Virus record (IMG/VR): IMGVR_UViG_3300042565_001014
Span: 1-24,201 of that record
DNA length: 24,201 nucleotides
Source: a virus
Strand: one strand, 5' to 3'
Shown here: piece after piece, positions 112 through 21,234 of the stretch
How positions within the stretch are numbered: the first letter of the stretch is position 1
How the letters are laid out: each line of letters opens with the position of its first letter
The notes under the pieces: generated by a model
Seen by the model: only the letters and a program-made list of their open reading frames with translations
Told to the model about the DNA's origin: nothing
Databases searched by the model: none
Position numbers and translations under genes: made by a program

Positions 112-1421
112 TTCTCCTCCTCGTTTGCTTTGTTCGCCAACTGGTCAATCAGTATTCGCACAGCTGCTGCGGCCTGCTGTGGAACAACACCGTTCCCAAG
201 CACCTTCAGAGCTCTTGTGCGGGCCTCCAAACGACTGCTGACCCAACCGTCCGGTAAACCCATCATCCACTCCACAAAGACCGGATTCAGACGTCCCTTG
301 CTGTCCACTGGTTCAGGAGCTGGCCGTCCGACTATCGGTTCCCATCTTGCGATGGCCTCGGCGTACACGCCGAATCTATCTGCAGTTGCGCCTGCACGAT
401 GTCCGTCAGGAAAGCCTGCTGGCCTTTCGCTATCCGCCTGGCTGACGTTTCCGGATTGCTGCTCGCCTTCGTCCCATCGGCAGCAACTGGTGTCGGCAGC
501 AACCTCCTTCGGTTCGGGTCCGGCTGCTGGTGAAGGTGCGACGCAACTATGGCATTCAGAGGAACTGTCACCCGTTGGCTTTGTGACGCTGGCCCGTTGC
601 TGCTGGCATCCTGACAGGTCGGTGTTGGTAACAGTTTCACCTTCGCTGACAGGTTGTCCCCTTTGTAGGTTTCTGTCTTGTAATGCTCCTTCGCGTCGTT
701 CGCAATCGGCGTCGGGAGTAGCCGCGTCGCTTCGATCTCCAACGGCCGACCGTGACCATTGCCGTTCCCGTGTTCCGCCCTCATCCGATCCGTCCACTTG
801 TCCCACTCGTCCACCGTCTTGCCCCGCCCCATGTCCACCGCCGTCGGCGTCGGCAGCAGGAAAATCCACTCCTCTAGGTTGGAGTGGTATCCGTCCTCCC
901 GAGGCTCTTCCAAGGTCCGCATTGCTGTTCTCGGCGTAGGCAAGACAGAACCAGCGAAGGCGTCCATGCGGGGCACCAACGTCTGCTGCTCGTATACAAG
1001 TCCACTCCGCAGAGAACCCGTTTTCGGCCAGCGCAGAAACAACTCGGGCCAAAGCGTGTCCATTGTTTGCGGTAAGAATGCCGGCGACGTTTTCGAGGAG
1101 GAGCCATTCGGCACCAGTTCGGCGAGCAACCTTGCAGACGTCATCAATAAGCCACCTTTCGTCCTCAATACCTTTACGTTTCCCAGCCACAGAAACCGGC
1201 TGACACGGGAACCCTGCGGTTACCAGGTCCACATGTGGCGGGTCGGTGATCTGCGTCAGATCCCCAAGATTAGGGATGTCAGGATGATGGTAGGCCATCA
1301 CCTCACAGGCTGCCTTGTCAATCTCGGCATACCAGGTGAGCTCAACATCTACACCAGCCAGTCCGAGACCCATCTCAAGGCCACCATAACCAGCGCATAG
1401 GGCAGCGACCTTCAGGGTCAT
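108..1421 (-). CDS. dcm: DNA (cytosine-5)-methyltransferase
   Basis: This 437-residue protein transfers a methyl group from S-adenosylmethionine to C5 of cytosine in DNA; in phages this usually protects the genome from host restriction. Visible motifs are the SAM-binding motif I (CAGYGGLEMGL, about residues 9-19), motif IV with the catalytic Cys73 (GFPCQPVS), motif VI ENV (110-112), motif VIII (GAPHGRLRWF, about 149-158) and motif X (LGNGVVPQQAA, from 408). FVEWMMGLPDGWV precedes motif X, as in actinophage relatives. The start is ATG 1421, which overlaps the upstream stop as ATGA; GTG or ATG codons further upstream would overlap that gene more. Oddity: residues about 165-365 in this frame are low-complexity, Gly/Asp/Arg/Ser-rich with repeated ADADG-type motifs, and the same DNA reads as a better protein in another frame (see 332-1144). 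The target sequence cannot be predicted. Confidence 0.9.
   Translation of the reverse strand: MTLKVAALCAGYGGLEMGLGLAGVDVELTWYAEIDKAACEVMAYHHPDIPNLGDLTQITDPPHVDLVTAGFPCQPVSVAGKRKGIEDERWLIDDVCKVARRTGAEWLLLENVAGILTANNGHALARVVSALAENGFSAEWTCIRAADVGAPHGRLRWFCLAYAENSNADLGRASGGRIPLQPRGVDFPAADADGGGHGAGQDGGRVGQVDGSDEGGTRERQWSRSAVGDRSDAATPDADCERREGALQDRNLQRGQPVSEGETVTNTDLSGCQQQRASVTKPTGDSSSECHSCVAPSPAAGPEPKEVAADTSCCRWDEGEQQSGNVSQADSERPAGFPDGHRAGATADRFGVYAEAIARWEPIVGRPAPEPVDSKGRLNPVFVEWMMGLPDGWVSSRLEARTRALKVLGNGVVPQQAAAAVRILIDQLANKANEEEK
332..1144 (-). CDS. Putative overprinted LPTP-repeat protein inside dcm
   Basis: This second same-strand frame lies wholly inside the methyltransferase gene and would give 270 residues from ATG 1144. 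AAAGGTGG sits seven bases upstream of that ATG as a plausible ribosome-binding site; the frame itself is open from a TTG at 1168. Five LPTP motifs occur at about residues 68, 97, 143, 172 and 216, several followed by a small residue and Asp (for example LLPTPTAVD, LLPTPVAAD). From memory, such W/LPTPxxxD repeats are common in phage proteins encoded within or next to cytosine methyltransferase genes. A hand count over 783-900 gives about 90% G or C at third positions in this frame and about 45% in the methyltransferase frame. It may be a separate overlapping protein, or the original middle of the methyltransferase displaced by two compensating frameshifts. Its function is unknown. Confidence 0.45.
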   Translation of the reverse strand: MTSARLLAELVPNGSSSKTSPAFLPQTMDTLWPELFLRWPKTGSLRSGLVYEQQTLVPRMDAFAGSVLPTPRTAMRTLEEPREDGYHSNLEEWIFLLPTPTAVDMGRGKTVDEWDKWTDRMRAEHGNGNGHGRPLEIEATRLLPTPIANDAKEHYKTETYKGDNLSAKVKLLPTPTCQDASSNGPASQSQRVTVPLNAIVASHLHQQPDPNRRRLLPTPVAADGTKASSNPETSARRIAKGQQAFLTDIVQAQLQIDSACTPRPSQDGNR

Positions 1422-1821: not shown

Positions 1822-2424
1822 TTATGCCTCCCTCTCCAAAGTGCGGCTGAGCTCTGGCCGGGTCCAGCCCTCCCATTGCCCGATCTGCTCCCAGAGTTCC
1901 TTAGCCTGCTCCTTGTCACCATCTGTGGCAGCAAGCACAGCCTTCTTGGCCTGTGCCTCAGAAAGATGATCCGGCCAGGTCTGTGAATTGCTCGGGTCGA
2001 ATTCGACCCTTTCAACCTCGTACACGTCATGATCGGGGTCACGCTCATCGGTTGGAAGCATGAACGCTTGAATCAGCGCAGTCCTCCAAGCAACGCTCAT
2101 CGCCTTCGCTGTGGCCTTGTCGCCATGATCCATTGCCTCACCGACACAGATCGTGGTCAGCGTGTCACCCTTCGGCCCGATGATGTGATACTTGACGGTG
2201 ACGGTCACGGACCGGACAGTCTTGCCTGCGGCAGCTGGCAACTGTTGAACCGCAGCATCGAGAACCTCAGGAAGAATGACCAGTCCGTGCTCACGGCAGG
2301 CTGGGCCGATGGCGTTGACGACTGCGTCCACACCACGAAACGACCATCCCTGTCCATGCTTCTCATCCTTCGTTACTGCCCGCACATCACGCATCACGTT
2401 TCGCATTGCTTCGTGAACTGTCAT
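1822..2424 (-). CDS. erf: ERF-family single-strand annealing protein
   Basis: This 200-residue protein is a recognisable ERF (essential recombination function) family annealase. Such proteins bind single-stranded DNA and anneal complementary strands during phage recombination, circularisation and repair. The family core is clear: GQGWSFRGVDAVVNAIGP at about residues 24-41, REHGLVILPEV near 44-54, and GEAMDHGDKATAKAMSVAWR at 95-114, followed by LIQAFMLPTDERDPDH. The C-terminal about 60 residues are Glu/Lys/Ala-rich and look like the usual variable tail. ATG 2424 is chosen because AAGGAGG lies eight bases upstream; longer versions reach back into the preceding gene. No exonuclease partner is seen here, but an SSB that could cooperate with it is encoded at 13852-14244 under a near-identical promoter. 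Confidence 0.9.
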   Translation of the reverse strand: MTVHEAMRNVMRDVRAVTKDEKHGQGWSFRGVDAVVNAIGPACREHGLVILPEVLDAAVQQLPAAAGKTVRSVTVTVKYHIIGPKGDTLTTICVGEAMDHGDKATAKAMSVAWRTALIQAFMLPTDERDPDHDVYEVERVEFDPSNSQTWPDHLSEAQAKKAVLAATDGDKEQAKELWEQIGQWEGWTRPELSRTLEREA

Positions 2425-2453
2425 CGTTGACTCCTCCTTGTTTGTTGTTGCCA

Positions 2454-2699
2454 TCAGACTTCGACCACTGTGGCGTATACATCCCAGCCGGCTGCTGTTC
2501 TGCGCTGCGCCACCTGCCAACCCTTACGATGGCCGGCCTGCCGCCAGCGCTGTGCATCATTCCGGTTGGTGACTGCAACGACCTTCCTCCAGACGCCAGG
2601 TTGACTACGTAGCACTGCGTCAACCTTGTCGTAGTGAGGGTTCTTGCGGCCACCAGTCGACGCAGGCGGGACTGCTACCGGATACTCATCTTCACTCAT
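2454..2699 (-). CDS. Small basic unknown protein
   Basis: The product has 81 residues. ATG 2699 is well supported by AAGGAG eight bases upstream, and it overlaps the end of the preceding gene by 8 bases. The sequence has a short acidic, proline-containing start (MSEDEYPVAVPPAS), then a basic compact region rich in Arg, Lys and Trp (NRNDAQRWRQAGHRKGWQ), then a possible strand WDVYATVVEV. The charge pattern and the place just before the ERF annealase would suit a nucleic-acid-binding accessory protein, but that is only inference. No family is recognised. Confidence 0.7.
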   Translation of the reverse strand: MSEDEYPVAVPPASTGGRKNPHYDKVDAVLRSQPGVWRKVVAVTNRNDAQRWRQAGHRKGWQVAQRRTAAGWDVYATVVEV

Positions 2700-19252: not shown

Positions 19253-19282
19253 CAGCCCAGCCTTTCTCTGTTGTCAGCCGAC

Positions 19283-21001
19283 TCAGGAGCCGCACGCAAC
19301 GGCATCTTCGATGGCAGCTGCCGAGGTTCCATCGGGGCACACGGTGGAGGTGATCCACAGGGACTCGATGCCTCGGTGAGCGACACCTTCGAAGGTTTCC
19401 ACGAACGTTTCGTAGTCGTTGGTGCTGTTGAGGGTTGCGTCCCGCACGATCCCGAGATCAAGGGTGCCGCCGTCAAGGAACAAGTGATGCCCCTCGTCGT
19501 ACAGGCCCCATTGCACGGTGCCAGGGAAGGCAGTCAGAGCGCCAGCGCCCTGAGCACCGAAAATCTGCGAGGTGCCAGTCGTCGGCGTGTCGTCGTAGAA
19601 CGTCACGTTCACACCGGCCACAGCCAGTCCGCTCCGGAACACAGCCTCACCATCAGACACGAACCGGCTGTCGCTGGCAAGCGAACGGACCAGATCGACG
19701 TCACCAAGCGTGGTGATCCACCGAGGAACCAGCGCACGAAGCACCACGTTCGGCGCACGGTGACGGCTGCGGTACGCAGCAGCAGCACGCTTGATCGCTT
19801 CGATAAGGTCACGAGATGCCCCGAAAGACTGACCGACTGTGACAGCAGTGCTGGCACCCTTGATGCTGTCAAGGAGGACAGTTTCTGCGGCCCGAGCGTG
19901 CGCTGCGAAGGCGAGCTCGTTGAAGTTGGCGACGTTCTCAGGGAAGGCTCGAGCGCCCATGTTGCCGAAGCGAAGCCGCTTCACGATGGCAGAGGTGAGG
20001 TACTCGCTGAAAGTCGGGCAGTCAATGGTCTGCACACCCTTGACCGCACCATCAGGGTCCTCGTCGGTGTCGTTGTCCCACACCGTGATGGCCGCATCAG
20101 CGTCGCTCGCGTTGTAGGTGATATCGATATCAGCGAGGGTCCGAGGCTGGGCCACACGAAGGCCGCCACGAGTTGCCTGGAACGCCGGCAGCGAATCGCG
20201 GACGGGCCGACCAGCCTCAGAGATCTGAGCCAAGCCGTAATCCACATCGGTGGGAGCGCACCAGCCGCCAGAGGCGACAATGCTTTCGGTCCACGACGCC
20301 GGATCCTGCGCGGCAGCAACGACTGCCTCGATCCGACCCTCAACAGTGGAGCCATCCATCTCAGGCAGGACTCGGTCCTCGGGGTAATCCGCCACGATGC
20401 GGGCACCGCGAACCTTGTTGCCGTAGACGCCAGCTGCGCCACTGTTCCACAGGTTTGCCATTTCACGAGCAAGGTCGCCCATGCCGGAGATTTCGCCATG
20501 CTGACCGACGATCCGGTACGAATTCGCAGGAGCCTGAGGACGCGGGTTCGCCTTGACCGGCGCAGCCTTTGCGATGCTGGCAAGAGGCGGAGCAGCAGCA
20601 GCCACAGGAGCCGCAGCCTCCTCAATGATTGCCTCAGCCTCAGCGACGACCTCGGCCACAACATCAGTAGTTGCCTGAGCCTCATCGTCGGCCTCGACTG
20701 GCTCAGCTGCTTCACCGTCAGCCGGCTCAGCAACCTCAGCAGAAAGGCGAGCTTCCAACTCAGCGATGGTCATCGCTGCCTCGGCAGCAGCCTCGAGCCG
20801 CTGGTAGGCCACGACGCCAAGCAGATCAGCGATCTCAACGATGCGAGCGAGCAGCTCCACATCAGTCGGTTCGATGCCTTCGACCTCGCCGGCGCGAATC
20901 TGTTCGAACAGAGTCACCAGTTCGGTGCGGGCAGCGCCGATCTCGTCGTCGGTGAGGGTTCCAGCCTCAAGGGCTTCAGCAATCTCAGTAACACGGTCCA
21001 C
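19283..21001 (-). CDS. Major capsid protein, HK97 fold, with N-terminal scaffold-like part
   Basis: The product has 572 residues from GTG 21001, with GGAGAAG about seven bases upstream. The last 410 residues have the features of actinophage HK97-type capsid proteins: GDLAREMANLWNSG, PTFSEYLTSAIVKRLRFGNM, DLVRSLASDSRFVSDGEAVF and FLDGGTLDLGIVRDATLNST near the end. The first 155 residues are unusual in amount: helical stretches, then an Ala/Glu/Val/Pro-rich segment (about residues 85-145) ending in a basic, Pro-rich linker, KANPRPQAPANSY. This N-terminal part is probably an internal scaffold (delta domain) that the upstream maturation protease removes. The 697 bases upstream hold its probable control region. 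Confidence 0.9.
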   Translation of the reverse strand: MDRVTEIAEALEAGTLTDDEIGAARTELVTLFEQIRAGEVEGIEPTDVELLARIVEIADLLGVVAYQRLEAAAEAAMTIAELEARLSAEVAEPADGEAAEPVEADDEAQATTDVVAEVVAEAEAIIEEAAAPVAAAAPPLASIAKAAPVKANPRPQAPANSYRIVGQHGEISGMGDLAREMANLWNSGAAGVYGNKVRGARIVADYPEDRVLPEMDGSTVEGRIEAVVAAAQDPASWTESIVASGGWCAPTDVDYGLAQISEAGRPVRDSLPAFQATRGGLRVAQPRTLADIDITYNASDADAAITVWDNDTDEDPDGAVKGVQTIDCPTFSEYLTSAIVKRLRFGNMGARAFPENVANFNELAFAAHARAAETVLLDSIKGASTAVTVGQSFGASRDLIEAIKRAAAAYRSRHRAPNVVLRALVPRWITTLGDVDLVRSLASDSRFVSDGEAVFRSGLAVAGVNVTFYDDTPTTGTSQIFGAQGAGALTAFPGTVQWGLYDEGHHLFLDGGTLDLGIVRDATLNSTNDYETFVETFEGVAHRGIESLWITSTVCPDGTSAAAIEDAVACGS

Positions 21002-21234
21002 GGTTCAACTTCTCCAGATTGTGGTTGTCTGATATGACAGATCTCTAGTTGGCGACCGGCGAAGCGGGTCATCAAGATCCCTGGCTATGCGGGGGACCTA
21101 GCAACACTGCGTAAATGGTACATGGCATCACAGCCTGCTGCAAGCATCGTCTGATTGGTGCCCTGAAGGTCGCAGGAACGTGGGACAGGTAGTTGGTGGG
21201 GAGTCGCCTCAAAGGTGGGCCAGCAAACGCTAAA

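Follow-up and report, generated by a model that had tools for sequence, protein, structure and literature searches.

A methyltransferase gene with a second frame inside it

The window, by which we mean the whole stretch of DNA that was analysed, is a 24.2-kb virus record carrying phage genes that include those annotated as an endolysin, tail proteins, a major head protein and an exonuclease. The minus strand at the beginning of this record carries a gene for a C5-cytosine methyltransferase that we call alpha (Table 1). Alpha matches PF00145 over residues 20-185 (E 1e-39), scores above the cut-off for TIGR00675 and matches phrog_363 with an E value of 3.5e-59, and the motifs that characterise PF00145, namely I, IV (PCQ), VI (ENV), VIII (RxR), IX and X, are all present in alpha and in order. 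The original prediction had described a methyltransferase frame with C5 motifs and a Gly/Asp-rich middle, and motifs I-VIII are indeed followed by an interval of approximately 170 residues rich in Gly, Ala, Ser and Asp and then by motifs IX-X. No conserved recognition domain was found between VIII and IX of alpha, the middle of which does not align among relatives and, in the codon-phase test described below, evolves by the rules of the other frame.

Table 1 Features of the methyltransferase locus and its surroundings. Positions are nucleotides of the window unless marked aa (residues of the protein named)
Feature	Position	Strand	Remarks
Alpha, C5-cytosine methyltransferase, 453 aa	108..1469	-	GTG start at 1469
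Alpha motif I	aa 27-32		
Alpha motif IV, GFPCQP	aa 86-91		
Alpha motif VI, ENV	aa 125-128		
Alpha motif VIII, GRLRWF	aa 169-174		
Alpha motif IX, NPVFVEWMMGLP	aa 395-406		
Alpha motif X, GNGVVPQQ	aa 425-432		
Alpha C-terminal part (YAEAIARWEP, motif IX, motif X)	174..365	-	All in the alpha frame
Beta, overprinted in the +1 frame relative to alpha, 270 aa	332..1144	-	ATG at 1144, stop at 332; five LPTP-bounded modules
Shine-Dalgarno-like AAAGGTGG	1152..1159	-	Ends 7 nt upstream of the beta ATG
Dual-coded region	944..1144	-	Beta N-terminal part over the alpha conserved core to motif VIII
Beta WPKTGSLRSG / alpha ALAENGFSAEW	1001..1030	-	Dual coded; third-base conservation, codon choice, beta alignments
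LPTP module region	332..943	-	Beta-frame selection; alpha here is an open, unconserved Gly/Asp/Ala/Ser-rich linker
LPTP motifs of beta	932-943, 845-856, 707-718, 620-631, 488-499	-	Beta aa 68, 97, 143, 172, 216
Beta module TAVDMGRGKTVDEWDKWTDRMRAEHGNGNGHGRPLEIEATRL	719..844	-	Module type found in 11 loci, in several layouts
Erf-like annealing protein	1822-2520		

Nested within alpha is a second open reading frame, beta, which had been predicted from the sequence as a 270-residue frame with five LPTP motifs and which is found exactly at positions 332-1144. Beta matches phrog_1008 (PHROG 1008) with an E value of 4e-20 and many further homologs of the LPTP frame were recovered. The link proposed between LPTPTA and ADADG also holds, as the two are the same DNA shifted by +1, and the overlap with conserved alpha motifs extends from about VI to VIII. 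Pfam and PDB searches with beta returned no match and a Pfam search of 43 beta members revealed neither an HNH nor any other domain. AlphaFold models beta with low confidence (mean pLDDT 61.5, pTM 0.31), the modules included, and for a relative in which the modules are fused into the methyltransferase (L052) it gives a confident catalytic domain with disordered modules; because of the catalytic part, a PDB fold search with the latter model returns nothing but M.HhaI and other C5-methyltransferases.

When the alpha codons were shuffled synonymously, 3.9 stops were expected in the +1 frame over 270 codons, with a probability of 0.007 for none, and 0.16 LPTP motifs were expected, with five reached in 0 of 3000 shuffles. 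The third-position G/C of about 90% originally noted over 783-900 was confirmed by our count (0.90 in beta vs 0.41 in alpha). We nevertheless dropped it as proof of the beta frame because the bias is only local: over the whole LPTP region the values are 0.71 for beta vs 0.50 for alpha, with ordinary genes of the window at 0.59-0.67, so that composition alone is weak evidence. A separate 588-codon open frame on the plus strand at 19271-21037 of the window, antisense to the major head protein (19283-21001, minus strand), is probably a composition effect.

Layouts of related genes

Approximately 200 loci were collected from viral contigs, genome contigs and annotated phages and their layouts were classified using profiles. 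In layout A (63 loci, the window included) alpha carries motifs I-VIII, IX and X, and beta consists of modules only in the +1 frame. In layout B (26 loci) the +1 beta carries modules together with motif IX (LNPTWVEWLMGFP...) while motif X stays in alpha; the C-terminus of beta here reads LNPTWVEWLMGFP..WTDLED and alpha reads the same DNA as EPDVGRVAHGIPSRVDRLRGLGNAVVPQ, followed by motif X. In layout C (22 loci) beta, again in +1, carries modules, IX and X, and alpha stops after VIII. Single-chain genes with the LPTP modules in the alpha frame are rare (L050, L052 and L125), and in two further loci, L040 (Gordonia phage Gudmit) and L055, the modules are split over the +1 and alpha frames in what appears from the sequences to be a frame flip of natural origin part-way through the array.

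The layout of the window is common to around 40 clusters (80% identity, N-terminal domain). Relatives with stops in the LPTP frame, or an LPTP frame devoid of homologs, would have told against the original prediction; homologs are numerous, and the +1 frame is open to the last LPTP in 49 of the 50 layout A loci that have LPTPs, the exception (L018) being a motif match past the end of the ORF. The prediction had also offered two explanations for the middle of the gene, an overprinted frame or a region flipped between frames by compensating indels. For the window it is the overprinted gene that stands, given the homologs, the internal start with its Shine-Dalgarno-like site, alpha codons chosen so as to keep beta intact and the purifying selection seen on the beta frame, and the flip finds its examples in relatives (L052, L050, L125, L040 and L055).

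Two 'DNA methylase' genes are annotated for layout C in phages of Streptomyces, Gordonia and Mycobacterium, and in Darolandstone, which has layout A, only alpha is annotated. The methyltransferase of phiBT1 (L038) is noted as one that 'may be inactive' and only its first half is annotated; the second half, with LPTP, IX and X, is an unannotated +1 ORF (locus 1619-2548), so this enzyme may be complete. Layout B loci include L057, L068, L069, L071, L082, L084, L088, L092, L099, L103 and L119, and the common phage proteins with LNPTWVEWLMGFP are probably beta subunits of the EcoHK31I-like kind.

A probable internal start for beta

In many relatives the alpha segment KGxxDER is encoded by AAAGGAxxxGATGA, which contains a Shine-Dalgarno-like site and an ATG in the +1 frame. 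The Asp of KGxxD is GAT in 20 of 24 LPTP loci compared with a background of 26% (p 4e-8), and its Gly is the Shine-Dalgarno-like GGA in 16 of the 24 against a background of 18% (p 5e-7). This GAT bias is absent in control methyltransferases without a detected beta. The window has GAC at the common start site and relies instead on an ATG located a few codons further on, preceded by a Shine-Dalgarno-like AAAGGTGG of its own that sits within the alpha codons for DERW. Very probably an internal start yields a second protein made of exchangeable modules.

Selection in both frames

Codon phase was examined in pairwise DNA alignments of nested genes; the contrast found is large, although the pairs lack independence. 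At positions 1/2/3 of alpha codons the mismatch rates were 0.27/0.22/0.47 before beta, 0.30/0.22/0.46 in the alpha/beta overlap, 0.40/0.22/0.22 across the module region and 0.23/0.19/0.47 downstream of it. The rates in the module region imply that there, and there only, the free position is position 3 of beta codons. Genes in which the enzyme is split display the beta-frame pattern in the module region and in IX-X too. Across the overlap as a whole alpha position 3 is not slowed (0.462 vs 0.467, all pairs), and judging by the alignments the dual constraint is focused on the WPxSG segment.

For the analysis of this segment the dual-coding group comprised 59 loci chosen solely by the presence of at least two LPTPs in +1 downstream of motif VIII. 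A group defined by the beta N-terminal profile was discarded as circular in favour of this one, and a 'none' group was rejected as control since it contained beta carriers without LPTP, the controls being split by score instead. Third bases at fourfold sites of alpha reach 1.7 times the expected conservation only around DLAELGYDAEW, which in +1 reads WPxSGSxRxG; in beta alignments the corresponding WPKTGSLRSG of the window includes the invariant residues P40, G43 and G48. The alpha Gly codon at this place is GGG in 57 of the 59 loci, against a background of 84/569 (15%, p 3e-39), and in 36 of 38 after thinning at 70% identity; among methyltransferases without a +1 profile match GGG is found at that Gly in 8 of 28. 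In addition, the Ala of the segment is GCC in 49/49 and the next Ala is GCG in 38/43, and the window itself uses GGG, GCC and GCG at these three codons. The choice of GGG preserves the Gly of the beta WPxSG and thus points to selection on both frames at once, which had been raised as a possibility by the original prediction.

Stop codons are depleted in both directions. Over the N-terminal part of beta the LPTP group has 21 stops in +1 where 76 are expected, and loci with weak +1 matches, many of them Firmicutes, have none where 26.6 are expected. Given beta, the alpha frame of 36 nested genes (5068 codons) contains 0 stops against 85.6 expected, while the third frame of the same genes has 154 against 164. 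As an open alpha frame was itself what placed a gene in the nested class, this zero is partly case selection, and the expectations per gene are the fairer measure: 5.3 for the window (synonymous shuffling of 190 beta codons, 0 present), 11.4 for L004, 7.2 for L118 and 7.0 for L006. The peak at synonymous sites, the codon choice and the two-way depletion of stops together indicate selection in both frames, and dual coding is well supported by these sequence comparisons.

LPTP modules are shared between genes, orders and frames

In total, 338 LPTP-bounded segments were clustered at 50% identity into 180 clusters, of which 22 span at least three loci, the commonest being found in 21, 20 and 18 loci. 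The module DGxKGGPNQRGSxGDLTLPSA is present in 21 loci and QLAVNGGSQHPDKRKAGGHGPTLADEVE in 18; the fused gene L052 carries the latter in its alpha frame. The module of the window that starts TAVDMGRGKTVDEWDKW is a member of the type present in 11 loci. The commonest modules recur in layouts A and C and in the fused alpha frame with varying ranks and neighbours, so that, as would be looked for in recognition cassettes, modules recur in differing order and combination. That no module type occurs twice in a gene is true in tight clusters; with looser clustering 22 repeats were observed vs 12.9 expected and we dropped this as a rule. In the fused genes the modules lie exactly between motifs VIII and IX. 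The pure fusions L050, L052 and L125 have no match to the beta N-terminal profile and encode the Gly as GGT, GGT and GGA, respectively. Selection on both frames, conservation of the modules in the beta frame and recurrence of module types across genes, orders and frames are well supported by sequence.

Interpretation of the nested pair

We consider it likely that the locus encodes a methyltransferase of two subunits, in which target recognition falls to a nested, overprinted subunit built of shuffled cassettes. In such an enzyme alpha (453 aa) would supply the catalytic motifs I-VIII and the C-terminal IX-X, and beta (270 aa) would be started in +1 at the internal ATG from its own Shine-Dalgarno-like site. 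The N-terminal part of beta (WPxSG...), which is overprinted on the alpha core up to motif VIII, is possibly a region that docks on alpha (944..1144). The remainder of beta is a series of LPTP-bounded modules of some 20-45 residues at the position of the target-recognition region of C5-methyltransferases, a link that is plausible, and each module may be one recognition cassette. Through the modules the alpha frame gives an open, unconserved linker. Beta would assemble with alpha and recognise the DNA target in trans, and the assembled enzyme would probably shield phage DNA against restriction by the host. The two-subunit reading is favoured by the position of the modules between VIII and IX, by the presence of IX or IX-X in beta of the sister layouts and by the loss of the N-terminal motif in fusions, such loss being expected if that motif serves docking in trans.

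One might instead suppose that beta is a real overprinted protein with a role other than recognition; it could for instance regulate alpha, or be an unrelated protein that binds DNA or counters restriction. We regard this as unlikely, although it deserves some weight, given that beta has no structural or family match to a recognition domain (Pfam, PDB, AlphaFold) and that alpha of the window keeps both IX and X. There is also a precedent for a different hidden protein, the ShiLan domain, an HNH endonuclease inside a phage methylase whose own frame is open (PMC11855218). The ShiLan domain, however, is mobile, a homing insertion that occupies the third frame of a different methylase gene, whereas beta is in +1, and among the 43 beta members no HNH or other Pfam domain was detected in the alternate frame. 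The exact placement of the modules between VIII and IX in fused genes speaks against a role outside recognition and, in layouts B and C, the motifs IX or IX-X carried by the beta ORF tie it to the enzyme. An improbable alternative to the two-subunit reading is that after motif VIII ribosomes slip by +1 out of alpha, continue in the LPTP frame and make one fused methyltransferase in place of two subunits. Layout C, where the alpha ORF ends just past VIII and the ORF with LPTP, IX and X is always in +1, would suit such a shift, and natural in-frame fusions are known (L050, L052). The beta WPxSG segment, however, lies upstream of any shift and would never be translated by shifting, yet its codons are selected; the internal ATG and Shine-Dalgarno-like codons are enriched; and a ribosome that shifted in the window would have to return to its first frame in order to include motifs IX-X.

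The LPTP frame could also be imagined as nothing but a by-product of alpha, whose Ala/Asp/Gly-rich repeats would give LPTP by codon arithmetic. In favour of this, DNA that reads LPTP gives ADADG after a shift of one base, and WP..G is in part a reflection of the conserved alpha segment LAxxGxxAEW. This reading is already contradicted and can hardly be upheld: substitution in the module region follows the phase of beta and not of alpha, the GGG preference and the alpha-preserving shuffles described above run against it, and in fused genes the modules occupy the alpha frame itself. Equally little credence can be given to a decaying, frameshifted copy in which modules once in frame were moved by indels. 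Frame flips do exist in the relatives L040 and L055, but in the window both frames are open, the motifs are intact and either start site appears usable, and its layout is shared by the clusters counted above.

More tentatively, as a proposal we hold at somewhat below even, the two-subunit reading may extend to a large class of phage C5-methyltransferases that place their specificity in a +1 overprinted subunit and draw on a shared library of LPTP cassettes, shuffled with both frames kept open. A moving hand-over, of the recognition region alone, with IX or with IX-X, would then link nested, EcoHK31I-like, AquI-like and single-chain enzymes.

Comparison with known systems

The small gene of M.EcoHK31I is nested in another frame of the large gene, and the window likewise has its second ORF in another frame inside the gene for the large subunit. 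M.EcoHK31I consists of two polypeptides, the large one with motifs I-VIII and X and the small one with motif IX (PMC3404938). Compared by reported motifs, the 26 layout B relatives have the same division as M.EcoHK31I (and M.EaeI); the window differs in having both IX and X in alpha and only LPTP modules in beta, and the recognition domain of M.EcoHK31I is reported in the large subunit. In M.AquI motifs I-VIII are in one subunit and the distal variable region with IX-X is in the other (PMC3404938). Actinophage genes of layout C (for instance phiBT1, RemusLoopin and Float294) share this division, and a separate downstream polypeptide with IX-X is found in all 22 layout C loci, whereas the window has IX-X in the alpha frame and the N-terminal part of beta overprinted on the alpha core. 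The phage 'DNA methyltransferase' families PHROG 1008 and PHROG 16143 match nested +1 ORFs, but their entries are silent on members being overprinted frames without the catalytic motifs I-VIII.

The multispecific C5-methyltransferases of Bacillus phages of the SPbeta/phi3T/SPR type carry exchangeable recognition cassettes of about 40 residues in their variable region. They resemble the present genes in having a variable region of exchangeable cassettes and differ in being one polypeptide in one frame; their cassettes and the LPTP modules are not known to be homologous. In the open-licence literature we found no description of the overprinted family, the module library or the module-only layout. 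The class has experimental precedents; the present layout, the cassette library and the breadth appear undescribed in the literature that could be searched.

Two-subunit cytosine methyltransferases were previously known from a few enzymes, and the overprinted arrangement is now seen at around 100 loci, mostly of phages. Among phage genes labelled 'DNA methylase' or 'hypothetical protein', many would accordingly be half of a pair, and beta escapes gene callers that do not allow nested ORFs. Should beta be the specificity subunit, cytosine methylation would have a natural recognition part that is modular and acts in trans, with a readable cassette library that could be decoded using methylome data.

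Nested frames outside the LPTP type

Nested ORFs at related genes have in places been annotated. In Paenibacillus phage Diva (L200, 1036-1740) the nested ORF is annotated as 'g49 internal gene', in phages related to Diva two DNA-cytosine methyltransferases are annotated at the same place, and in Streptococcus phage P0092 two 'DNA methyltransferase' ORFs are annotated one within the other. In several C5-methyltransferases from Firmicutes (L157, L159, L164, L171, L180, L190, L191 and L196) the same core is overlapped by a +1 ORF, in which a related RWMNWGTM motif precedes SLSDILE...PEKYFLSQ. The nested +1 ORFs examined from Firmicutes match phrog_16143 with E values of up to 6e-61, and a match to this type of +1 ORF is present in 211 phage records, mostly from Streptococcus. 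On this evidence the overprinted subunit may extend far beyond genes of the LPTP type.
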